Source: Sedimentisphaerales bacterium
Lineage (GTDB): Bacteria > Planctomycetota > Phycisphaerae > Sedimentisphaerales > SM23-30
Assembly: GCA_016928435.1 (NCBI GenBank)
Contig: JAFGKT010000008.1
Location: 16,419-80,418, forward strand
DNA length: 64,000 bases
Direction: 5' to 3'
Positions 14,861 through 29,900 of this stretch are shown here, one piece after another (position 1 is the stretch's first letter; each line of letters opens with the position of its first letter). Under the pieces are notes generated by a model, which did no database searches, was not told the origin of the DNA, and saw only the letters and a program-made list of their open reading frames with translations. A program made the position numbers and the translations under genes.

Positions 14861-15358
14861 ATGCATTGTAAGTTTCACAATTTGAAGATGGAGGACTCGG
14901 CAGTGAGAGCAGATAAAACCAATGTGGCTGTGGGTACTTTTGTTAAAAGCGTGAGTAAAATTGTTTTGGTGTTGGTACTATTGGCTAGTGCAGCATTGCT
15001 AACTTCGTGCCAAACACCATCAATGCCTGTTGATGAGAATCTCACAGGAACCTATACGCTGGTATCAGTCGATGGCTATGAAGTACCGGCTGTGGTTACA
15101 CACGGCGATACGGATATTCGCGTGGAGTCGGGCAGATTTGACATTAATCCTGATTATACATGCCGTAGTACCACGCTTTTTGGCCGGGCGTCCAGTACTG
15201 ATTTAATCACACGAGAGGTGGACGCTACTTACACTTTGCAGGGTTCGACATTGCACATGCAATGGCAAGGGGCCGGTCGAACGATAGGAACCGTCGAAGA
15301 TAACACATTCACGATGAACAACGAGGGAATGGTATTCGTGTACGAGAAACTGCCCTAG
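14861..15358 (+). CDS. Hypothetical lipoprotein, small beta-barrel/lipocalin-like
   Basis: Signal with lipobox LLTSCQ followed by LTGTYTLVSVDGYEVPAV... Confidence 0.65.
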   Translation: MHCKFHNLKMEDSAVRADKTNVAVGTFVKSVSKIVLVLVLLASAALLTSCQTPSMPVDENLTGTYTLVSVDGYEVPAVVTHGDTDIRVESGRFDINPDYTCRSTTLFGRASSTDLITREVDATYTLQGSTLHMQWQGAGRTIGTVEDNTFTMNNEGMVFVYEKLP

Positions 15359-15463
15359 TTATTCACGTCACGAAAAAGTGGGCGTGTTGCCCAGCGTAAC
15401 TCAAGCGTTTCTGCTTGAGATTTATGGCTGGGAAAATTCTCACGTTTATGCTTGATTGGTGGT

Positions 15464-17974
15464 TTATGGGGTGATGTTATCAATTGGTATTGATTCGTTG
15501 GGGTCGGGTGTTTGGTCGGTGGGGGGTTGCGGCGGTGTTAGTGGTTGGGTGGGCCAAGGCTGATTTAAGAGTAAGAGGGCTTGGCGTTGGAGCAATCCGT
15601 TGGCGTCATGCTCAGCGGTCCACTGAAGGTAATCGGTTAGGTCAACGATATCGTTGAGGGTTTCAACGGCCATGAATCGCACGAACCAATGGGGATCGTT
15701 CAACATTTGGGTAAGCTGCGTAACGGTGGCGGATGAGCTGCCCATGGGGATGCCCTGTAAAGCGTTGGCGGACCAGGCGCGTATCAGCGGGGACTCGTTT
15801 TGCAGATTGGCTACGATTCTTTGATAGATTTGGACATGATCGACGGGGCTGGGGCGATACTGCAATCGGCCTTGATGAGCGCTAAAGGCTTCGTGGAGCA
15901 AGCCTGACAGAAGACGGATGGATTTGATGGTTGCAACGACATTGGAATTTCGCAATTGCTGGAAATGATAGCGCATACGATCGGCATCTGGATCGAAACC
16001 TCTGCGGGTGACAACGACGGTCGTGACGGGCAGTTCGGGTATGGCGTTGGCGAAGGTATTGGTTTGGGGATCGTAAACGGGATCGAGATACATTCTAAAG
16101 GTGACGCGATAATCCATTTGGGGATGGCTGCGCAGTCTTTGGCGCAGCGGCCCTACGTTTAGCACCAATTCTTGTCGATTCGCCAGTCCCGGTTCGAGGG
16201 CTCTTCTTTGGCCGAGATGACCTAAGGTGACGGGTTGTTCGGCATCCTCGCTGTTGATTTGGGCGGTTATGAGGATGTTGGGGTTGACGGCATTGCCGGG
16301 GCTCAGGACCAGCGGAATGTCGCTGGTATTGGCGAGCGAGATTTCCGCGGTCATATCATCGCCGTAACTAAAGATGTCGCTGCGTAGGCGCAGGGAACAA
16401 CGGATATATTGCTGGGGATTATCGACAAAACCAAGATCGTGATTGTTGAAGTTTTGGATGAGCATGTTGCCGAGCATATCGGGCGGGGAGCCAAGAGCGG
16501 CGTTGGGATCAGGAGTTGGAGGGGGCGACAATTGAGCGAGGAGCTGCTCGAAGTCGCGGGCGAATACACCGGCGGCTCCCGGAACCATGGTGTTGAGGGT
16601 CGCCAGGGCGTTTTCGTTGTCGCCTTGCGCTTGATACAATTTCGCTTGAGTGAGGACTACCAAAGGATCGGAAACTGCGCAGGGGTCGATAGCGGCAAGG
16701 ATGGCTGCGGCATCATCAACGCGGTCGTTCATCAGGTGGGTGTAAGCTGACATTGCCTGCATGCGAACTTCATCAGGGGCCTCTTGCAGAGCTAGAGAAG
16801 CGTATTGCAGGGCAACTTGAGGATCGCTCTGGATGAAACTATAGAACCAGGCAGCCAAAGCGATGTATTCGGGATCAGAGTTGTTTTGCTCGGCGAGTCG
16901 CTGAGCGATGATTTGATTGGTATTGTTTAGGAGAGTTTGGCCTTGTTGGACTTGTCCGAGTTGGACGAGTGCTTGGCCTCGCAGGGCATTAGCGAGGAGG
17001 TTTTGGGGGTCTTGGGCTAGGATTTGTTGGGCGACATTGGCGCAGACATCGTAGCGACGACCGGCGTAGGCGCCTACCAATTGCGATTCCATCAGGTCTT
17101 GCATTAGAGCTTGGTTATCGGCGGATCGAGCCAATATGCGGTAAGCGTGGGCATAATAAGGATCGGTCAGGTCGTATCGGCTGATATCCTCCAATAAGCT
17201 GATGATGTTCAAGGCGGCATCTAAATTATAAGGGTTCTGGTACAAACGTACGCGCCAAAGATAGACCGAATTGACATAACGCATTTCGATCATATTGATT
17301 CGGGCGCGTTCGATTTGAGTGTCGGTTAGATTTGTTTCGTCGATTTCGGGCAGGGGCAATTCGAGGAAGCGAGCCAAGGCGTTGTCGTTATAAGGGAAGA
17401 TGGCAAAACTGCGCTGCAGGAGTTGACGGGCGGTTTCTCGGTCGGCGGTTTCCAACGAGAAAGTAGCCAACTGGTCCATAACTTCGCTTAGTATACTGGG
17501 ATAATCGCGCAGAGTTTGGATTTGCGATCGAAGGAACTGCTCTCGATCGGGGCGACTTTGGAGTCTGTTGAAATGATAGCTGATCCAAGCGCGGATGACC
17601 TGCTCATCCTGAATACCGAGCATGGCGTATTGATTGAGTGCCTCATCGGCGCGGGTAATATCGTCGATTGGTGCTGACGCGACTGTGGTTACGAGTTCAC
17701 GCCAAGCGGGGGCATATTGATTGTCCAACGCGACGGCAGATTCAAGATACAGCGACGCTTGACGGATTTGCTGTTGGATTTGCTGGGGGCTCTGCTGGGA
17801 CTGGGTATAACCAGCCAGGGCCAGTTCGGCTGGGGCCAAAACAGCGCGCGCCTCGGCAAACATCCATTGGGCATCGGTAAGGTTTCTTTCGCTTGCGACT
17901 TGGGCGCTGCTGACAGCAGTCGCGGCCAAGAGCAGCAATACGGTAAAGCTTATCTTATACAGGTATCTGGTCAT
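15464..17974 (-). CDS. Secreted TPR-repeat protein with C-terminal HEAT-like segment
   Basis: Signal peptide MTRYLYKISFTVLLLLAATAVSSA; TPR-like helices; SANALQGIPMGSS...HWFVRFMAVETLNDI HEAT-like. Confidence 0.75.
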   Translation of the reverse strand: MTRYLYKISFTVLLLLAATAVSSAQVASERNLTDAQWMFAEARAVLAPAELALAGYTQSQQSPQQIQQQIRQASLYLESAVALDNQYAPAWRELVTTVASAPIDDITRADEALNQYAMLGIQDEQVIRAWISYHFNRLQSRPDREQFLRSQIQTLRDYPSILSEVMDQLATFSLETADRETARQLLQRSFAIFPYNDNALARFLELPLPEIDETNLTDTQIERARINMIEMRYVNSVYLWRVRLYQNPYNLDAALNIISLLEDISRYDLTDPYYAHAYRILARSADNQALMQDLMESQLVGAYAGRRYDVCANVAQQILAQDPQNLLANALRGQALVQLGQVQQGQTLLNNTNQIIAQRLAEQNNSDPEYIALAAWFYSFIQSDPQVALQYASLALQEAPDEVRMQAMSAYTHLMNDRVDDAAAILAAIDPCAVSDPLVVLTQAKLYQAQGDNENALATLNTMVPGAAGVFARDFEQLLAQLSPPPTPDPNAALGSPPDMLGNMLIQNFNNHDLGFVDNPQQYIRCSLRLRSDIFSYGDDMTAEISLANTSDIPLVLSPGNAVNPNILITAQINSEDAEQPVTLGHLGQRRALEPGLANRQELVLNVGPLRQRLRSHPQMDYRVTFRMYLDPVYDPQTNTFANAIPELPVTTVVVTRRGFDPDADRMRYHFQQLRNSNVVATIKSIRLLSGLLHEAFSAHQGRLQYRPSPVDHVQIYQRIVANLQNESPLIRAWSANALQGIPMGSSSATVTQLTQMLNDPHWFVRFMAVETLNDIVDLTDYLQWTAEHDANGLLQRQALLLLNQPWPTQPLTPPQPPTDQTPDPNESIPIDNITP

Positions 17975-18217
17975 AAATGCTCCCTGACGAAAAATCTGAT
18001 TAGGGATTCCAGGCAATTCTAGTTAACTGTTATTATTATCGGCCTGTGCGAAAGTACAAATGATTTTTGCTGGGAAATGACTTGGTTTTTTACTTATAGG
18101 ACGTTGCGGGGCGGTTTTTGGCTGAAAAATTTGCTTTGACGCTGCTTATATTTTACGCTTGAGGCAGGAATTGTACATTGAAGTTAGAGACCTAGAAGAG
18201 CTTTAGGAAAAGAATTT

Positions 18218-18868
18218 ATGTTATTGAACAGATCGAATTTGGCGATAGGATTTTGTGTTTTGGCGGCTTTGGGCTTTAATTACGCCTGGGCGCTGCAGGT
18301 GGATATTGGCAGCCAAGAAAGCGCGCGGGATGATTCCGGTGAGGGGGTATTTCAGACGCAACTCAGTGATGGTGATCTTGATTTTTGGTATGAGAGTGAC
18401 CCGAATGACCCTAACGGGTTTGCGGCATCGCCGGGCGAGTGTTTGGGCTCGAACCGCCGTTTCGGATTTGGCGGGGGCGGCGTAGCGGATGTGGGTGAGC
18501 GAGAGAATCCGCAACGGTATTTGGATAACCACTACAGCAACGTGAACAGTGGATATGCACCCCGGAGTTTCAGCTCAAGTTCCGGTGATATTGATGACAG
18601 GGGCAGACCATGTGATTGGCCGGGCAATCCCAATGCTCGTTGGAGTCGTCAAAGGCACAATTGGGAATCCAGCGGCGTTGATGGTGACTATCCGGAACCG
18701 GCGGCATGTTTTGGTGAAGGGGCAGTTGAGGATGGATGGGATCCTTTGCAATATCCGCAAGAGCCGGACGATGAGATTACCACGGCAATAATTCCCGAGC
18801 CGATTGTGGTCGGCATGTTGGCGGTAGGAGGCGGGGTGTTGCTGCGGCGGCGTCAATATTGTGCGTAG
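18218..18868 (+). CDS. Small PEP-CTERM-type secreted protein
   Basis: Signal peptide and C-terminal IPEPIVVGMLAVGGGVLLRRRQ. Confidence 0.72.
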   Translation: MLLNRSNLAIGFCVLAALGFNYAWALQVDIGSQESARDDSGEGVFQTQLSDGDLDFWYESDPNDPNGFAASPGECLGSNRRFGFGGGGVADVGERENPQRYLDNHYSNVNSGYAPRSFSSSSGDIDDRGRPCDWPGNPNARWSRQRHNWESSGVDGDYPEPAACFGEGAVEDGWDPLQYPQEPDDEITTAIIPEPIVVGMLAVGGGVLLRRRQYCA

Positions 18869-18911
18869 GATTGTCTTGCCGGCGGGAGGTCTCGGCGAAA
18901 TCGACTGGTTA

Positions 18912-19784
18912 TCAGGGTTGGAATAAGCTGTTGTTGTCGGGGCCGAACCAGCCTACTGTGAATTTATCCAGTAGGCCGGAATCATAATCGGGGTGGCTAA
19001 AAGCGAAATGTTCTTGGCTGATATGGCCGTCAACCCAAGAAACATTGGCGTTTTCAAGATGACGAAAATGCACTGACGGGATAGTCCTGGCGGTTGCCGC
19101 AAAATCACTGCTGGTATTTAGATCAACTCTGTAGGGGGGTTCACAAAATGAATACTCGATGATGTATGGTGTGGTTATTCCTTGCCCTTGTACGAAGCAG
19201 CAGTCAGCGAACATGACGGTTTGGCCGGGGTTGGAAATCTCGTGAGTTTTCATGCTGGTTCGCATGGCTTTGTCACAGTATCCGTCGATGAAGCTTCTTG
19301 ATCCCACGCCGGCGCCATTATAGCCGTATCCGCCGCAGCCGGCCTCGAACGCGTTTTGTGAGCCGTCGGTGATGAAGTGAACGATTTGGGGACATTGTTT
19401 TACTTGGCCCTCGGCGAGATAGTTGTTGAGGGGCCCTAGGGTGGGGTCAAAGGTGTTGTTGGCTGGGTCGGGATCGACACCGGCTGAGAGTCTTACGCCG
19501 TGCCAGCGGTTCTTGCCTCCGAAACCATCAAACAAATCAAATGCAGCCCGCACATAAAAATCATCATTTTCAAGGGCATAGCCGGTATTCGCCAAGTGCA
19601 ATTGATGCAGATTACTACGACAAACAACAGAACGCGCCTGTTCTCTCGCCCGCGACAGCGAAGGCAATAGGATGCTAATCAACAAAGCGATGATGGAAAC
19701 GACCACCAATAACTCGATGAGTGTAAAGGCCGCCGATCTAATCTTCGCAGCGGCACAGGGGCATTTTATTGATGTTTTAATCAT
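18912..19784 (-). CDS. Type II secretion/pilin-like protein (prepilin N-methylation motif, H-x9-DG-like tail)
   Basis: [36 protein letters not shown]-terminal [17 protein letters not shown] lies 5 nt after the upstream gene's stop (19790-19792). Confidence 0.88.
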
Positions 19785-19789
19785 GGCGA

Positions 19790-20971
19790 TTACTGTCGGC
19801 TCCACGCCCAGGCAAAAAACGCGAAATCGTCAAGATTTACGATATTATCGACAACACAGTCAGCGGCGGGGTAAAAGTCGCCATTGGGCGCGTGAGTGAG
19901 CCAGGCCTCGGCAAAGAGTGCCAAGTCAACGGCATCCATATTGCCATCGCAGTTGAGGTCAGCAACGGGCCTGACGTCGGCGACGGCGTCAATCTCAGCG
20001 GAGATATCACCAACATCACTGAATCGCGCATCCACAGCGGTAGTTATGCGAATGTATCTAAAGGACGTGAGGTTGGCTGGGGCAAAGGTATCGGGGTCCA
20101 CGGCCCATTTGATATCGAATGCGTCGCCTCCACCGCTTCCCTGGGTAATGCCGGTTTTAATGGGGTCATCGGGAATTGTATAGAACAACTCGGCCGGCAT
20201 ATCGCAAGCGTCGCCAAACGAGCCGGTGGTATCGTCCGCGTCACGATCACCGAGCTTCAGGGTCGGGGAGTACTCAGCGTAGCCCCAGTAGCCTTCGGTG
20301 TTGGGGTCCGTCAGGCGGTTGGGATTGGCGAGGGCATGGATATTGTTCACAATGACATAGGTGGCAGCGACTTCGTATGCCGCGGTGTCGTAAGAGTCCG
20401 GCCAGCCGGTAAACGTTGGATAGTCATTAGCCGGCTGGGTTGCGCCGCCTCGAATCCAAGTTTTACTGCGATATGTTGAGGTGTCGCTGAGGTGAGAGCC
20501 GGCGATTAGAAACCATCTCTCGCCGGGATCATCGCCGGGAATTTCGTTGTCGTTCAGTTCCGGCATGATTTCGATAGTGGCCGGCTCCGCGAAGTGATAT
20601 TGCGGGTTGTATAGCACCAAAAAAGCATTGCCGAATACGATGGCGTCCATACCCATTGAATTGGCGGGGTCGTCCAGGACATCGTGATCGAACGCTAACA
20701 CAATTTGGCCTCCAAACGCGCCCAAGCTGACGACTGATTCTTCGCTGCTTTGGTTGAGGCCGGCGCCTATCGGCGCTCCTAGAGCGACATTTGGTTCGTT
20801 AAAATCAGAGTCCTTGATCCACTGGCCAGGTGCGGGGCAATACGCTGGTGAGTTTGGTTCATTAAGACTTATGTCAATGACCGCCGCGGCAAAAGGATTG
20901 TATTCAGCGATGGCAGGGCGGACCGCAACACACAGAACAAGACACACACTAATGCGAATTAACATCCGCAT
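19790..20971 (-). CDS. Surface protein with Bacteroidetes B12-locus-like 'GNAF/AEP' domain and C-terminal dockerin-like repeats
   Basis: [38 protein letters not shown]...[56 protein letters not shown]...[15 protein letters not shown]. Confidence 0.8.
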
Positions 20972-21096
20972 AGTCTTTCTGCTTTCTGTGTTTGTCAGAT
21001 AGTGCGTTGGGTTCATCACGGCCCTTATAAAACCGATTGGGCATTTGTCCTCACGTGTAAGCGAGAACAAATGCCTATGATCGGTTTGTTTATATT

Positions 21097-22152
21097 CTAT
21101 AGACGACGTTTGCGTATTAGCATTCCTGATCCAAGCAGCAGCAGTGTTACCGTGATGGGTTCCGGTACTGCCGACAGTTCGGCGATGCCGTTATAATAGA
21201 AGTCTGCTTGGTATATTGAGCCATCAACGGTGACGTTGCCTTGGGAGTCGATTAGGCTGATCCAGTCGCCCCATGGTCCTTGCGCGGTAGCTAACACATC
21301 GTAGTTTGTTCCTGATCCAACATTGCCATTCCACATTGCGACGTAGTGAGATTCGGGCTCGGTATCGCTGCCTGAGTAGTTGGCGTTGCAGATGACATTG
21401 TCGGCCTCATCGACGGTGGTGTCGTATCCGCCGCCTAAGAGGTCAGAAAGTATTGTCGCATCGTTAATATCCATAGAGCTTGCTCCGACGGCAGCGGCAA
21501 CCTGGGCGGCACTGAAGCTAATAAGCGCGTTGTCAGCCAGGCCGTTGGTCGCGTAATACACATTGCCCGCGGAGTCGAAAGCAAACCCGGCAGAATAGCC
21601 GCCGATCGCCGCGATGCAATCGTGATCGTTTGAGCCGGACGTGTCCAAAAGCCAAATCGAAGTTGGATCAAGCCATGAGGTGCTGTTCAGGCCGGTGACA
21701 TAAGCATTGCCGCCAGAAAACTCCATCTCAAAATTTCCAGCCATGGTCGCTTTGTAGGCCCATGATTGGGTAGCTAGATCAACTTGATAGATTCGGTCAT
21801 CGGTGTTGCCATCGACCGACATGCCGACCCATACGGAATCGCCCGATGGGTCAAGTCTGACAAAGTTATTCCAGCCGTAATCATATCCGGCCGGGGTGCC
21901 TAGATCGGAGATTACAGTGCCGGAAGTATTCATGAGTTTCAAGCTGCCGCCGTTTACGTAATCGTTTATCCATGCAATCACATTGTCCCCTTGGACATCG
22001 TAGCCGGCCACGGATTGCGATGTTAGAATGTCCGAACTTTGATAACCGGGCTGAGCGACGAGAAAAGTTGAATCAGCATAAGCTGTGCTTAGAACTGTTA
22101 GAACAGTGAGCGTAACTAGTGAGAGTAGGTGCGATTTTCCTTTTTGTGACAT
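21097..22152 (-). CDS. PEP-CTERM surface protein with beta-propeller-like repeats
   Basis: Signal peptide; blade-like DSVWVGMSVDGNTDDRIYQVDLATQSW, SAGFAFDSAGNVYYATNG; C-terminal AVPEPITVTLLLLGSGMLIRKRRL. Confidence 0.8.
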   Translation of the reverse strand: MSQKGKSHLLSLVTLTVLTVLSTAYADSTFLVAQPGYQSSDILTSQSVAGYDVQGDNVIAWINDYVNGGSLKLMNTSGTVISDLGTPAGYDYGWNNFVRLDPSGDSVWVGMSVDGNTDDRIYQVDLATQSWAYKATMAGNFEMEFSGGNAYVTGLNSTSWLDPTSIWLLDTSGSNDHDCIAAIGGYSAGFAFDSAGNVYYATNGLADNALISFSAAQVAAAVGASSMDINDATILSDLLGGGYDTTVDEADNVICNANYSGSDTEPESHYVAMWNGNVGSGTNYDVLATAQGPWGDWISLIDSQGNVTVDGSIYQADFYYNGIAELSAVPEPITVTLLLLGSGMLIRKRRL

Positions 22153-22200
22153 TTGTTGGTCCTTCTTCTGAAATTTCTGTTTTCCTGCTCCTGGCATTCA

Positions 22201-22328
22201 GGAGGATCTAGAGGCCGAATCCGACTACGATGACGCATCATAGCGGTTTGGAATTGGTCCATAGTTGCGAATAACACATTCGCATTGACGCAATTCCTAA
22301 TTACAAAGTCGGGCGGTCTGGATCCTCC
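22201..22328. other. Nested palindromic element (candidate structured RNA or MITE-like) in the B12-operon leader
   Basis: Nested exact pairs: 22201-22208/22321-22328, 22221-22226/22307-22312, 22250-22256/22291-22297, 22266-22272/22278-22284; near-exact 22225-22232/22236-22243. Confidence 0.7.
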
Positions 22329-22393
22329 GTGGTTTAGCTAGCATGTCCCGGCTGACTTAACCATCCGACTGATAAACGGAGAAAAATGGAAGG

Positions 22394-22425
22394 GTAGGCG
22401 AGTCGCGGTCAAACATCTCGCCTAC
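22394..22425. other. 9-bp perfect-stem hairpin GTAGGCGAG-N14-CTCGCCTAC in leader
   Basis: Exact inverted repeat 22394-22402/22417-22425. Confidence 0.65.
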
Positions 22426-22516
22426 TCTGTCCTATTGCGAGGTCGAAATTGAATCCCCCAGATTTCTTTTGTGTCCCGGCAATTGTTACTCTAGTAAACA
22501 ACGCTCGGTCCGGGCA

Positions 22517-22552
22517 TAAAAAAACCTCGTCCTTCATGGAAGAACGAGGTTG
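22517..22552 (-). terminator. Intrinsic terminator of the cobalamin riboswitch expression platform
   Basis: Minus strand AACCTCGTTCTTCCATGAAGGACGAGGTTTTTTT; alternative ACGAG-aaaccaac-CTCGT overlaps its 5' arm. Confidence 0.88.
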
Positions 22553-22667
22553 GTTTCTCGTAAGAGCAGAATTGGTTATCGCCTGTTGCGGTGTTTTGCG
22601 GATCATCCACATCAGGCGGCAGCCTTCGCTGTCTCGACTCATTCCACGAAGTCGTTTTCTCAGCTTT

Positions 22668-22828
22668 TGACATTGGTAGGTCTTCTGGCTCTCGGCTGAC
22701 TACTCTCCAGGCCTTCCCATCTATTATAGATAGTGGCATATTCCGGATTTCGATACCGATTACAGCGGCGGGTCCGCGACGGTTTCGCACCGTCTTCCCT
22801 TTTTCAGGCTCTCACGAGCCACCAAAGT
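22668..22828 (-). promoter_or_regulatory. Cobalamin (B12) riboswitch
   Basis: Minus strand GGTGGCTCGTGAGAGCCTGAAAAAGGGAAGACGGTGCGAAACCGTCGCGGACCCGCCGCTGTAATC...GATGGGAAGGC...GTCAGCCGAGAGCCAGAAGACCTACC: conserved core and B12 box. Confidence 0.95.
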
Positions 22829-22862
22829 CATTTGCGTTCTGCTATTGTCAAAGAACGTCCGA

Positions 22863-22891
22863 ATTGTATTGAAGCGATCCGGATAAGTCAA
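22863..22891 (-). promoter_or_regulatory. Promoter TTGACT-N17-TACAAT upstream of the B12 riboswitch
   Basis: Reverse complement reads TTGACTtatccggatcgcttcaaTACAAT. Confidence 0.75.
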
Positions 22892-23417
22892 CGGCGTTTC
22901 AATAGTTTTGCGAATAAATTTACGATGAGTCAGAGCGATTGTTGGCTTGGGAGTTCTGGACCAGAGAGGCAGATTGATGACCCGGCACGCGGATGATGGA
23001 GCGTATTTTGGGTGGTCGGCTTGGGGGCATACCAGCGGGTCGGGGGACAGCAAGGTCCTATAACTCTATTGATGGTCGTAATTTACCCTTCGCAGCCGCC
23101 TTAAGTCCATATAGATAACCACGCTAACTCGTAATATCCTTGACTGCACTGAGTCCATATATTTATAATGAAGATGTCATATATGCTATGGGCAGAGAAA
23201 CCTCATTTCCGCAGAGCTCCTCTGGTGTTTTCAAGTGGCGTCGAGTTTTGCGTTGGGTCTCTTTTTGCGCAGGTCGTTACGCGGAGAAGAACGAGCTTAA
23301 CAGGAGTATATATAGCGTTTAGACACAGAAGAAGTGTTGATTGACTGCGGCCCTGTGATGGTCATGGTTTTTCAGCGAATGAGATATGGGCAGGCTGTTT
23401 TTTTTGGAGGTGCTATT

Positions 23418-26363
23418 ATGATTCGGTTTAGAAGTCTATTGGTATTGGCGATGGTGGTTGGATTATTGGGAGCGGGAGTTGTTTTGGGGCACTGGGATGA
23501 GGGGGATTCAGCCAAGTGGATCCAATTGCCGGACCGAACCACCAACGGCGTGGACGTCGAAATGGATAATCGAGACGACATCATGCGAGTTTTGGGTGAT
23601 GATTTTCTCTGTACAGAAACCGGGGCCATCACTGACATTCATTTGTGGTGTTCGTATTATCGTGATCTGGATGTATCGATTGATTGGATCGAACTGAGCA
23701 TTTGGAGCGATGTTCCCGACGATCCTCAAGAACCAGATGATTACAGCCATCCTGGTATGATGTTGTGGTCGAAGCTTTTTATGGCTTCCGAGATACAGAC
23801 ACGTCTCTATGCGGACCTTGAACCTCAGTATGAATGGTTCTGGGACCCTTACACGGGATTTCAAATGCCAAACGGTGATCAGAAGATATGGCAATTAAAT
23901 TTTCACATTGAGGATCCGCAGTTTATCCAAGAAGGCACCGAACAAGAGCCGATTGTATATTGGCTGGTAGCCAGGGCTTATTTGATACCCTCGGCCCTGG
24001 ACCAACGACTGGGTTGGAAGACTCGTCAATGGCCCGAGCATTACAACGATGACGCGGTACGCGGTGACATATTGAATTGGCCGACGGTCAATTGGTATGA
24101 GCTGCGATATCCGTTTGGTCATGAATATGAAACCCAGTCAATGGATTTGGCTTTTGTTATTCAGGGTGAAGGACCGGATGAGGAGTTTGACTGGGGCGAC
24201 GCGCCGGATCGGCCTTACCCTACGGTGTCAGCTAACAACGGCGCCAATCATTATATTGTTCCTGGTCTGCTGATGGGGGCCTTGATTGATCCCGAACCGG
24301 ACGGTCAGCCTGACCCAGCCGCGTTGGGTGATGACAACGACACAATCTATCCTCAGCCTGCGCCCAACGATGACGAAGACGGCGTGACGTTCTCGACGAT
24401 GAGCCCCGGATTGCCCGCCACGATGACAATTGATATGACCGCCGCGACAATGCCTGGGTTTATTGACGCGTGGATAGATTTCGATGGCAGTGGTGTTTGG
24501 GGTGATAATATTGGCGAACAAATAGCAGCTTCTGCACCTGTGAACCCTGGACTGATGAATCTGATCAACTTTAATGTTCCGCCATATACGACCATTGGTC
24601 AGCAAACCTTTGCTCGCGTTCGTTTGAGCAGCTATGGCGGATTGCCTCCTACAGGCTCCGCCCAGGACGGCGAAGTTGAAGACTACGAGGTATTGATCGA
24701 AGAAGAGGTCGAAGACCCGTGCGCTGATTTGGGTGACGCGCCTGACAGCACTAACACCAGCGGCAATCAGATGACAACTTACGGCGGGGCGGCCAATGCC
24801 AATTTCCCGACGGTTTTTGCCGCGGGTTCTCCGCCTTATGGTCCTTTGCACCGCAACCCGCTCAGTGTGGCGTATCTTGGCACGGCTGTTTCACTTGAAA
24901 ATGAAGCTGATATTTACCCGCCGGATCAAGACCTTATGCCGAATATCGATCCGCCGGCAAATGCCGCCGATCAAGACGGTGTGGATGACTCGGTCAACCC
25001 GCTTGGCGCTGACATTCACCAGATGCAGAATTGCCATCCTTCGGAGTTTGACTACACGGTTACAATCGTCAACCCGGCAATTCCGATGTACGTCAATGTG
25101 TTCTTTGACTGGAACCTCGACGGTGACTGGGACGACTCGTTTGTATGTCCGCAGGGTATCGCTGATGAACACGCTGTGAAAAATCAGATGATTCAGTTCG
25201 CCAGTCCGGGCACCTACACTGTAACCACTCCTCGATTCCTTCCTTATAGTCCTGCCGGTATTGGTGTCAGCCACTATCTGTGGATGCGTATCACGCTGTC
25301 GGAGCAGCCTTATAGTCCCAGCGGTGGGGCCGGGACAATAGGCGGCGGCGGTTCGGGGCCTTCAACGGGTTATCAGTACGGCGAAACCGAGGACTTCTTG
25401 GCTTATTTCTGGGGTGATGCCGATCACGACGCTGAACTTGGCGATGCGCCGGACAGCACCAACAATTCCGGCGTACCGATGACCGCTTATATTAGCGGTG
25501 TTCCAGCGAATTTCCCCACGGTTTACACTGATTTCGCCAATCCAGGCGGGCCTTTTGGTCCTATTCATATCTATCGTGGTCCGATCGCGAATCACGGTGC
25601 GGAATTGGGTATCACCCTAAGCGAAGAACAGGAAGCTGACAACGGCCCCGATAACGACACGGTAAACAACATAGATCCACCTAATAATGTCGCCGATTTG
25701 GATGGCGCCGATGACGCTTTGAGTTCGAGTACGATAACGCTGCCTGATTGTGACATGATGACCTTGAACTACAACGTCAACATTATTATTCCGCAGCCTT
25801 ATTATGTGAATATGTGGTTTGATTGGAACCGTGACGGCGACTGGGATGACACGTTCGACTGCTGCGGCGTACCAGCGCCGGAACACGCGGTGGTGGACCA
25901 GTTGCTGAATCTTACGGCTGGTCCGCACACGGTTACGACTCCGTCGTTTATTCCTTGGCATTTGCCGGGAATTCCTGCGGATCCTTGTGATGATATTTGG
26001 ATGCGTATAACACTGGCGGAACAGCCTTACAGCCCCAGCGGCGCGGGCGGTTCAGGCCCGGCAATGGGTTATATGCTGGGTGAAACCGAAGACCATTTGC
26101 TCTCGCAGACTCCGACCTGTTGGGACTCATTCGCGTGCGGCGGTCAACAGTCAGGTGACGCTGAGTGCGATGGTGATGTGGATCTGGATGATTTCTTGCT
26201 GTTGGCGAATTCCTGGAGAAAATCCGCAGGTGCTGCCGCGTATAATTGTTGTGCTGACTTTGATCACGACAGCACGGTAGATATTGTTGATTTGGCGGTT
26301 ATGGCCAGCAGTTGGCTGGACACGGGGCTTTCCCCAGCTACCAACAACTCCACTTGTCCGTAG
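23418..26363 (+). CDS. Secreted GEVED-domain protein (three related modules) with C-terminal dockerin-like repeats
   Basis: RBS ggagg then MIRFRSLLVLAMVVGLLGAGVVLG; DWGDAPDRPYPT...DGEVEDYEV; LGDAPDSTNTSGNQMTTY...GETEDF; LGDAPDSTNNSGVPMTAY...GETEDH; DAECDGDVDLDDFLLLANSW...DHDSTVDIVDLAVMASSW. Confidence 0.85.
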   Translation: MIRFRSLLVLAMVVGLLGAGVVLGHWDEGDSAKWIQLPDRTTNGVDVEMDNRDDIMRVLGDDFLCTETGAITDIHLWCSYYRDLDVSIDWIELSIWSDVPDDPQEPDDYSHPGMMLWSKLFMASEIQTRLYADLEPQYEWFWDPYTGFQMPNGDQKIWQLNFHIEDPQFIQEGTEQEPIVYWLVARAYLIPSALDQRLGWKTRQWPEHYNDDAVRGDILNWPTVNWYELRYPFGHEYETQSMDLAFVIQGEGPDEEFDWGDAPDRPYPTVSANNGANHYIVPGLLMGALIDPEPDGQPDPAALGDDNDTIYPQPAPNDDEDGVTFSTMSPGLPATMTIDMTAATMPGFIDAWIDFDGSGVWGDNIGEQIAASAPVNPGLMNLINFNVPPYTTIGQQTFARVRLSSYGGLPPTGSAQDGEVEDYEVLIEEEVEDPCADLGDAPDSTNTSGNQMTTYGGAANANFPTVFAAGSPPYGPLHRNPLSVAYLGTAVSLENEADIYPPDQDLMPNIDPPANAADQDGVDDSVNPLGADIHQMQNCHPSEFDYTVTIVNPAIPMYVNVFFDWNLDGDWDDSFVCPQGIADEHAVKNQMIQFASPGTYTVTTPRFLPYSPAGIGVSHYLWMRITLSEQPYSPSGGAGTIGGGGSGPSTGYQYGETEDFLAYFWGDADHDAELGDAPDSTNNSGVPMTAYISGVPANFPTVYTDFANPGGPFGPIHIYRGPIANHGAELGITLSEEQEADNGPDNDTVNNIDPPNNVADLDGADDALSSSTITLPDCDMMTLNYNVNIIIPQPYYVNMWFDWNRDGDWDDTFDCCGVPAPEHAVVDQLLNLTAGPHTVTTPSFIPWHLPGIPADPCDDIWMRITLAEQPYSPSGAGGSGPAMGYMLGETEDHLLSQTPTCWDSFACGGQQSGDAECDGDVDLDDFLLLANSWRKSAGAAAYNCCADFDHDSTVDIVDLAVMASSWLDTGLSPATNNSTCP

Positions 26364-26421
26364 CAGCAGATTAAAATTTCATAAGGCCCGTTTTCGGGAA
26401 AATGAAGTGAAAATTGGTTTT

Positions 26422-26467
26422 AAGCTCTGTCGCGAGCCTATTTCGGGCTCCGGCAGGGCTTTTTTTA
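26422..26467 (+). terminator. Rho-independent terminator after GEVED gene
   Basis: AAGCTCTGTCGCGAGCC-tatttc-GGGCTCCGGCAGGGCTTTTTTT, about 60 nt after stop. Confidence 0.85.
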
Positions 26468-26989
26468 TGGCGGGGCGAATTAATCAAACAAAATTAGGCT
26501 GGTGAACGTAATGATAACAGTGCCGACTTAAGTTGTTTTTTTGATGCTTAAGATTTCGCGCGATACGTGATTTACCGGGGGCGGCTGATTATACCTCATG
26601 AAAACTGTTTTATTTGGGCTTGCGGATTCCATCAGCGGTTATTTCAGGGGGAATATCCCTGCAAACACATGGGCGGCCCAAGTAAATGCCTTTGGATAAA
26701 ATTTGCCTAGTTTGACATGCCATGCGACTGTTTCAGGCTCGTCCAACAGTCTGTTCGGAGGGGGCGATAATTAGACTTGACGGGCCATAACAAACCGAAT
26801 ATATTGGTTTTAGGTTTTCGGCAGGCAGCCGAGCTTTTATTTATCCTCAGCCTACGTGACTGCGTAATGGCCTACTCCTGTATTGGGCCGCGGTCACACC
26901 CGCAAGAAATCAGGATTGCCTACCCCTATATACCAAACCATGGGCTGCCGTCGCATAGATTATATGGCTATTTTCATAGGAGACTTGGT

Positions 26990-29900
26990 ATGTCACACAA
27001 AGTACGCCGACGCTTCTCAAGGTTAGCTCTCCGGTCCAAATCGCGTATTTTGCCCAAAGCTGATTTGAAACTGGAGCCCCTGGAACAGAGGCTATTGCTT
27101 GATGTTTCCGGTTGGTGGGATGAACTGGGTTTCCGCAGCGGCAGCGGCGGTGGTATAACCTGGGATCCGATTGATGTCGCCGGTGAGTCGCAGCTTGTTC
27201 TCAGCAGTGACGGTGACCCGATCGCGGTTTGGGTTGAAGGCACTTTCATCGAATATAATGAAGATCCGATCCCGTTCCATTGGGAAATTGATGGTGACAT
27301 ATACGTGCGTCAATATGCCGGCAGTACCGACCCGGCTTATCAGGGTCTGCCTGGCTGGTGGGATTTGAGCGACGGCAGCGCCGACGGGCTTAACAACGTC
27401 GATACCGGGGAAGGTGAGGGTGATGATGAAGATGGGTATGTCGAACCAGTCCATACTGGTTCTGTGAACCGCATAGGCACCGGCCGACAGATTGCCGCAG
27501 CGGCGGGGCCAAACGGCGAGGTGGCGGTGGTCTGGGTGACAAATGGCAGCAGCGACCCTGAGGAACTCAATTATACTGGTGGTGACAGCGAGATTTATGG
27601 TCGGATATGGGACGGCTCGGAATGGGTCCAAATGGATTGGTCGGAGACTTACGGCGGTATCAGTAATGACGCCGTGCTGAACGAAAAGCCCAGCGTTGTT
27701 ATTTCACCGGTCGGTGAGGTTTTTGTTTCCTATACCGCCATACATCCCGGCACGGATCAACGAGAAATCGTGGTAAAACGTTACGGGTACAACTATCCGG
27801 AGACTTTTGTGGGGGTTCCTCATCCGGACGATCGGGTTTGGGTGGAGCTGACCGACGAAACAATAGGCGAATTTGCGGAACGTCCTCATAGTGGTGTATC
27901 GCACGACGAAGCTACTTCTTTTGATTCTTCGATAGTGGTTGACCTTGAAGGCCGACCGATCGTGGCGTGGAGTTCGATGTTGGGCCAGGACCAAGCGGAA
28001 ATCTACGTCAAACGTTGGACCGGCGATACATGGATCGAGATTAATAATTCTAATTCCGCCAGCGACCCTGATGACGATGGCCGCAGCGGCGTAAGTAACG
28101 ATTCCGGTATGTCGCTGCAGCCTGACTTGGCCATAACGGATAGTGGTGACTTGATTGTCACGTGGGTGAACTGGGCTGATTGGGCCAATTATGATAATCC
28201 TCTCACCGATGGTGGCCAAGCGGGTATATTTGTACGCGAGTTGGCGGACGGTAGCAGCACCTGGACGACATTCGACACCCAACACGTCGGCCAAGACAGC
28301 GCCACCAATCGAGGCTTGGCGCCGAGTTTGGGCTGGTACTACACCCCGAAGATAGACGTGGATAGTGCAGGCAATCCAGTGGTAAGCTGGCAGGGGTTTG
28401 GCGCTGGCGAACGTTATGTTGCCGACCGAGACGGGGATACTATTGTCGATGGAGTAGAGGTCCACACTCCTGATTTGCCGGGCAATCAGGACCTCGAATC
28501 ACCCGTCATGGCAATCTACGCCGGTGCGTATAACGGAACAGCTTTTGGTCTGCTGACCACCAATGCACGCAATTCTATCAGCCCTACGGTGGATATGTGT
28601 TGGATGCCCGACACTCTAATAGGCGAAAACGACGAAATCCTGGTTTCCTATACCTGGCGTGACAGTCAATTTGATCCATCAAATCTCGACTATGAAGTGT
28701 TCGTACAAGAATGGGACACCACGAACCTACAGTGGACGGAGCATGGTCGGGGCAGCAATTCCAACGGCAATGATGTGATTGGGCCGACACTGCGCGATTG
28801 GAGAAGTACCGGTTACTCGGTAGATGAGAATGAGACACAAATTGGACTGGTTGACTATAATGACAACCCCGAAGACCCGGATGTAATGCTTGCCAGTCCG
28901 AACAAGGCAGTTAATAACGGCGGTCATATTTACCATTACAGTCGTGTGGATGACACATGGTACACCGGCGATGTAGATATAAGCTTTGGTTACACTTTCG
29001 ACCTGGAAGGCGAACCCGATATTGAGTTCAATCTGGACGCCAATCCGCTATTGGCTTATCTGGATGATGTAAGTGGTTTGCCTTATGTTTATGAATGGAT
29101 ACCAAATGCCACGACAACCGGGGGTACGTGGACGCTTGTGGGTGGCGGTCCCGCCTCCGGCACAGTGGGCAACACCGAGTTTAACGATGTTGACGGCGAC
29201 GGAACTAACGGCAATCGCAATATCGGTATATCCGTACAAGCAGGTCCATACAGTCAGATACTGCTTACCTACCTGACCCACACCAACACCAGTGCAGAAG
29301 GCGTCACCAACGGAAATCCCAATAACAAGATCGGCGGTCATTATGGCGGCGGCAGTGACGATCTGGTAACTCTACTGTGGGACGGCAATACTTGGAGCAA
29401 TGTCGGTGATGGCTTTCTGAAGAAGCAGCCCGGCATGGGGGTCGCGTACTACTCTGATTTTGACGGGTTTGATTTCACCGAAGACAATATCGCCGAAGCC
29501 AAGGATGAAAATGACGATGGTGATATCAACATCGATGACTACGAAGAAAGTTACGATACCCTTTTCTATGGGAAAAACTCCGATCAGGTGGAGATCAGCA
29601 TAGAAGAAGGTAATGCTGACGCTACCAGCCCCGAGCCTGGTGCGGGTTATACCGGAAATCCGGGCGACGCGGGTATGGTCATACAATTTAATATCCCATC
29701 CCAGGAAAACTCGGCCGACTGGCCCTTTGACGCATGGCCCGGAAATGACGAGTGGCCTGGAGGCCAGCCCGATCCTCTGCCGCCAAACTGGGCTATTAAT
29801 TTAAATTCTCCGCCCAGGCCGTTCATGGGTATGGCTATAGGATATGTGGACTACTTTGTCAACCTGGATTCGTGGGTTGACGATCTTACTTTTCAATTCT

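Follow-up and report, generated by a model that had tools for sequence, protein, structure and literature searches.

Three kinds of described system come close to the locus analysed here: cobalamin riboswitch leaders of the Rfam family RF00174, B12-scavenging loci of Bacteroides and mobile palindromes of the MITE/REP type. The RF00174 model describes no structures beyond the terminator. In Bacteroides, B12-scavenging loci carry riboswitch-regulated surface-protein genes, among them the propeller gene btuG (PMC6143338) and the DUF4465 gene btuJ (PMC13398666), and the DUF4465 family has members that bind B12 (PMC13398666). The window investigated in this work is a stretch of 64,000 nucleotides (C9:16419-80418) from a Sedimentisphaerales genome of 3.07 Mb (80 contigs, 85% complete), which encodes PEP-CTERM and dockerin proteins and is planctomycete-like in its gene content. 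An earlier note had drawn attention to a nested palindrome on the minus strand (22201-22328), situated between a riboswitch and the first gene of an operon; its sequence, coordinates and stems, as well as the ATG at 22152, are as described there.

A cobalamin leader upstream of a surface-protein operon

The upstream part of the leader is a member of RF00174: the aptamer (22658-22841, minus strand) has a covariance score of 112.9 bits against a gathering cut-off of 31.5. It is followed by the hairpin CGACT-TCGTGGAAT-GAGTCG (CGACTTCGTGGAATGAGTCG; 22635-22654, minus strand), which, judged from its letters, is probably P13/L13 of the riboswitch; a hairpin resembling it stands directly 3' of the aptamer in most leaders. 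A computed intrinsic terminator (22523-22551, minus strand) comes next, and a spacer of 365 nt separates it from the first gene. The Shine-Dalgarno sequence GAAGGA (22165-22160) precedes the ATG, lies outside the palindrome fold and is largely free according to the partition function (~0.55-0.96 unpaired). A tRNA/tmRNA search returned nothing. In its aptamer, the hairpin after it, the intrinsic terminator and the surface-protein operon downstream, the window's leader equals other RF00174 leaders; the palindrome sits beyond the expression platform and is no part of the family.

Sequence and structure model together predict that the first gene (21097-22152, minus strand) encodes a secreted beta-propeller PEP-CTERM protein. 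The product was modelled at pLDDT 74, and its Foldseek matches are assorted beta-propellers only, so that a kinship with BtuG is unsupported. No match was found in a sequence search against PDB chains, and a single-protein search of the relatives' contigs found no relative. The second gene (19790-20977, minus strand) is, by comparison of loci, that of a dockerin-type surface protein; such a gene directly follows the propeller gene in all five loci compared, and a cobalamin riboswitch precedes the propeller gene in G001, G118, G081 and G095. In riboswitch operons of other relatives a DUF4465 domain is found in the first gene (L078:1899-2705, L070:1175-1963, L148:582-1109); in the window the beta-propeller PEP-CTERM protein takes this place. 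The operon probably serves corrinoid capture at the cell surface, given the riboswitch upstream and the B12-binding members of the DUF4465 family that occurs in relatives' operons, and the modelled propeller is a candidate B12-related or B12-binding surface protein. The Bacteroides loci likewise place surface-protein genes under riboswitches, with DUF4465 recurring in the relatives' operons and a propeller in that of the window, but the proteins of the window are of PEP-CTERM and dockerin type and its propeller has no sequence match among solved chains.

Fold, copy number and origin of the palindrome

The palindrome is predicted to form a three-way fold on the minus strand, in which a closing stem (outer arms 22201-22212/22317-22328, complementary at 11 of 12 positions) surrounds two hairpins. 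Hairpin A (22247-22300) has outer arms GGAATTG/CAATTCC that pair at 9 of 10 positions over 22247-22256/22291-22300, and within it is nested TGCGAAT-gtgtt-ATTCGCA, whose arms (22266-22272/22278-22284) match exactly. Hairpin B, CTATGATG-cgt-CATCGTAG (22225-22243), pairs 22225-22232 with 22236-22243 and includes one G-U. The four helices that had been called exact do exist, although the word was slightly generous, since one of them is exact. The closed fold of about 128 nt is borne out by computation: the exact 128 nt reach -50.5 kcal/mol (z -5.3), a value that none of 1000 dinucleotide shuffles attained, and the closing-stem pairs have probabilities of at least 0.99. Since the fold of the plus strand is just as good (-53.3 kcal/mol), strand bias does not identify the element as an RNA or single out the minus strand as the functional one.

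An accidental structure or an assembly artefact would be conceivable in a draft genome of 80 contigs, and in a rough scan of the 64 kb two coding windows came out with z near -5. With more shuffles, however, these moved to -3.6 and -4.8 while the palindrome stayed below -5. Among 998 windows of a minus-strand scan none had a z below that of the palindrome, whose boundaries were chosen to fit, and the element lies inside an 80-kb contig. We regard this explanation as highly improbable.

The earlier note also saw a competing hairpin, CTCCTG-aatgc-CAGGAG (22188-22204, minus strand), and with it two mutually exclusive folds. The hairpin is present as letters, but it is predicted not to form: its pair probabilities do not exceed 0.01, a fold forced to contain it is 5.8 kcal/mol less stable, and the closing stem remains at 0.99 or more. 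A switching RNA with two comparable folds was accordingly rejected, the alternative fold being worse by these 5.8 kcal/mol.

A mobile palindrome of MITE or REP type that landed in the leader had been offered as the alternative to an RNA. Imperfect terminal inverted repeats are indeed present, as are the nested hairpins and an extra block relative to related leaders that characterize such elements: homologous leaders do not have the palindrome, and the window's spacer is longer by about its length. Within the window's own genome, which is 85% complete and, like any draft, may have lost repeats, BLASTN, a covariance model and a pattern of the end repeats found one copy, so that the multi-copy prediction of the MITE reading was not borne out. 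BLASTN in plasmids and 60 relatives gave short chance matches only, and the flanks (...TAAACCAC / TGAATGCC...) contain no direct repeat, i.e. no target-site duplication. No obvious transposase was seen when the ORFs of 15000-28000 were inspected by eye. With its single copy and missing duplication setting it apart from MITE/REP palindromes, we think an origin of this kind quite unlikely.

Of the proposal of a new structured RNA, the strong fold stands, whereas a homologue was found in none of 149 relatives. Comparison with all Rfam 15 families yielded no score reaching a gathering cut-off, and at permissive thresholds only sub-cut-off matches appeared outside RF00174. The palindrome's covariance model, limited in reach by being built from a single sequence, found nothing at E <= 1 in the 149 relatives (12 of the same family, none of the same genus), nor at E <= 10 in 22 loci of relatives, the majority of them cobalamin leaders; homologues with covarying stems were found in no relative beyond genus level. 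The earlier note had stated beforehand that a lack of the element in relatives possessing this operon would argue against function, and this is what we observe: reading the leaders of G001 and G118 base by base, we found that their homologous operons have riboswitch and gene but no palindrome. The distance from terminator to ATG is 365 nt in the window, 237 nt once the palindrome is removed and 236 nt in the nearest relative, G001, the one relative on which this match rests. In other leaders of the family this spacer, which varies widely in length, holds additional, unrelated hairpins.

Taken together, the single copy, the absence from relatives and the spacer length that matches G001 after removal suggest that the palindrome is a lineage-specific insert and not a conserved regulatory RNA or a multi-copy MITE. 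By everything testable here it is private to its lineage, and selection within that lineage might account for how strong and closed the fold is. The reading we favour, with moderate confidence, is that of a lineage-specific structured 5'-UTR insert with a passive role in a surface-protein operon controlled by a cobalamin riboswitch. At low cobalamin, RNA polymerase would continue past the terminator (22523-22551) into the palindrome, which presumably arose by insertion; once transcribed, it would fold as a stable, branched hairpin whose end lies ~35 nt before the Shine-Dalgarno sequence. Its effect would most likely be passive, e.g. that of a barrier to RNA decay or of a spacer, rather than ligand sensing or switching.

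Conserved post-terminator elements in related leaders

The suggestion of a structured RNA at this leader position holds for relatives: what they conserve there, with covariation, is another element. In a set of ~90 cobalamin leaders of the same order, several spacers folded more strongly than that of the window (z down to ~-9, 30 shuffles). The strongly folded spacers of family f6 have in common UAUUUCCA, a hairpin and a second, GC-rich hairpin whose loop reads UCUGCC. A model named R2, built from seven f6 leaders and searched against 149 relatives, found the element once each in 16 genomes (E < 2e-5; 9 outside the model set), adjoining the cobalamin riboswitch. The members (L163-L178, e.g. 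L163:1501-1599 and L166:1501-1602) lie behind the riboswitch terminator at ~140-255 nt from the riboswitch, mostly 207-228 nt (computed by hand), and the riboswitches were confirmed for several. Beyond these 16 there is one more member, G044:C47, which is near a contig start and for which no riboswitch was seen. A second match in G077 seems to be the same element once more, at a contig break, G073 has a fragment at a contig end, and a few weaker matches (E > 0.002) may be due to chance. Across the 16 members, changes on both sides occur in 18 of 23 pairs (covariation score 0.475, compared to 0.195 in shuffled and at most 0.10 in slid controls; 0 of 500 shuffles reach 0.475), counts that lean to the model because the alignment was fitted to it.

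A second element, R3, occurs once each in eight f2 genomes, in every case with a riboswitch upstream (L187-L194, e.g. L187:1501-1598). It consists of CCAAUUCCACA, an A/U-rich hairpin and then GGUCUGCC...AGACC enclosing a GC-rich hairpin, and 6 of its 23 pairs covary. Neither R2 nor R3 matches Rfam, R2 was not found in a sample of the class outside the order, and a limited literature search did not reveal any earlier account of an element of this kind behind the terminator.

The motif UUUCCA is conserved in R2, and base pairing between this strand and the stretch immediately upstream of the start codon is predicted in 10 of 14 leaders bearing UUUCC (2.5-6.9 expected pairs by partition function, native leaders only), while 4 of 14 lack such pairing. 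These predictions suggest the hypothesis that an R2 closing helix around the two hairpins sequesters the Shine-Dalgarno sequence. This conserved structured RNA of the leader type is a different object from the palindrome, found in the relatives, and it is the more interesting result.

GCCCUCGCGNNAAGGGC, a further short hairpin whose loop resembles L13 of the riboswitch (UCGCG), was noted after the terminator in ~20 leaders, e.g. L113 (G137), L139 (G082) and L161 (G095). In most cases a near-perfect AAGGAGG comes after it, and a suitably spaced start codon is often missing; the hairpin may serve as a second kissing partner or as a stabiliser bound by ribosomes.

A possible counterpart in the window and implications for cobalamin leaders

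The palindrome shares with R2 and R3 the position behind the terminator and a similar topology (closing stem plus two hairpins), and strongly folded spacers at this position recur in many relatives. It might hence be a far-diverged or replaced R2/R3, i.e. a functional regulatory RNA that adjusts how read-through transcripts are translated or how stable they are; the window also has CCAATTCCA with a hairpin after it, as seen in R3 (5.5 bits). However, the best matches in the window are non-significant (R2, 2.9 bits, E 0.98; R3, 5.6 bits, E 0.53), the two models find nothing in the window's own genome, and the Shine-Dalgarno sequence is not sequestered in the predicted fold of the window. On these scores we rejected the palindrome as a member of R2 or R3, and a regulatory role of this kind seems unlikely to us.

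The position of R2 is matched better by another structure of the spacer, the hairpin at 22391-22444 (minus strand), ~210 nt from the aptamer. It comprises GACCTCGCA (22436-22444) and a stem of 9 bp (arms 22391-22402/22417-22428) with GACCG in its loop. The leaders of G001 and G011 have the same nonamer and a hairpin whose stem sequence is entirely different; elsewhere among all relative loci compared, GACCTCGCA occurs at one unrelated chance site. An invariant GACCTCGCA followed by unrelated but well-paired stems is thus seen in three genera of the family (the window; L033 from 1286; L071 from 2005). In the G011 and G001 leaders this hairpin is the best R2 match (5.9 and 4.2 bits), and in the window it ranks third (2.4 bits). 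The resemblance is suggestive of hairpin 22391-22444, not the palindrome, as the likely counterpart of R2/R3 in the window, with homology scores that are non-significant.

A lineage-specific insert, as we read the palindrome, is by itself a curiosity: a stable leader structure private to one lineage. The comparison of leaders matters more, as it reveals covarying RNAs outside Rfam behind the cobalamin riboswitches of at least 24 relatives. We tentatively entertain, while holding it to be rather doubtful, the wider idea that the cobalamin leaders of this order contain a second, uncatalogued RNA after the terminator, whose UUUCCA hides the ribosome site and adds a translational layer to the control of B12-scavenging surface proteins; in the window this RNA would be represented, in diverged form, by the 22391-22444 hairpin and possibly the palindrome as well. 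Among the genes downstream of R2 and R3 are some with DUF4465, a domain for which B12 binding has been shown in certain members. If R2 sequesters the ribosome site as predicted, two RNA controls would act in series on one B12-uptake operon.
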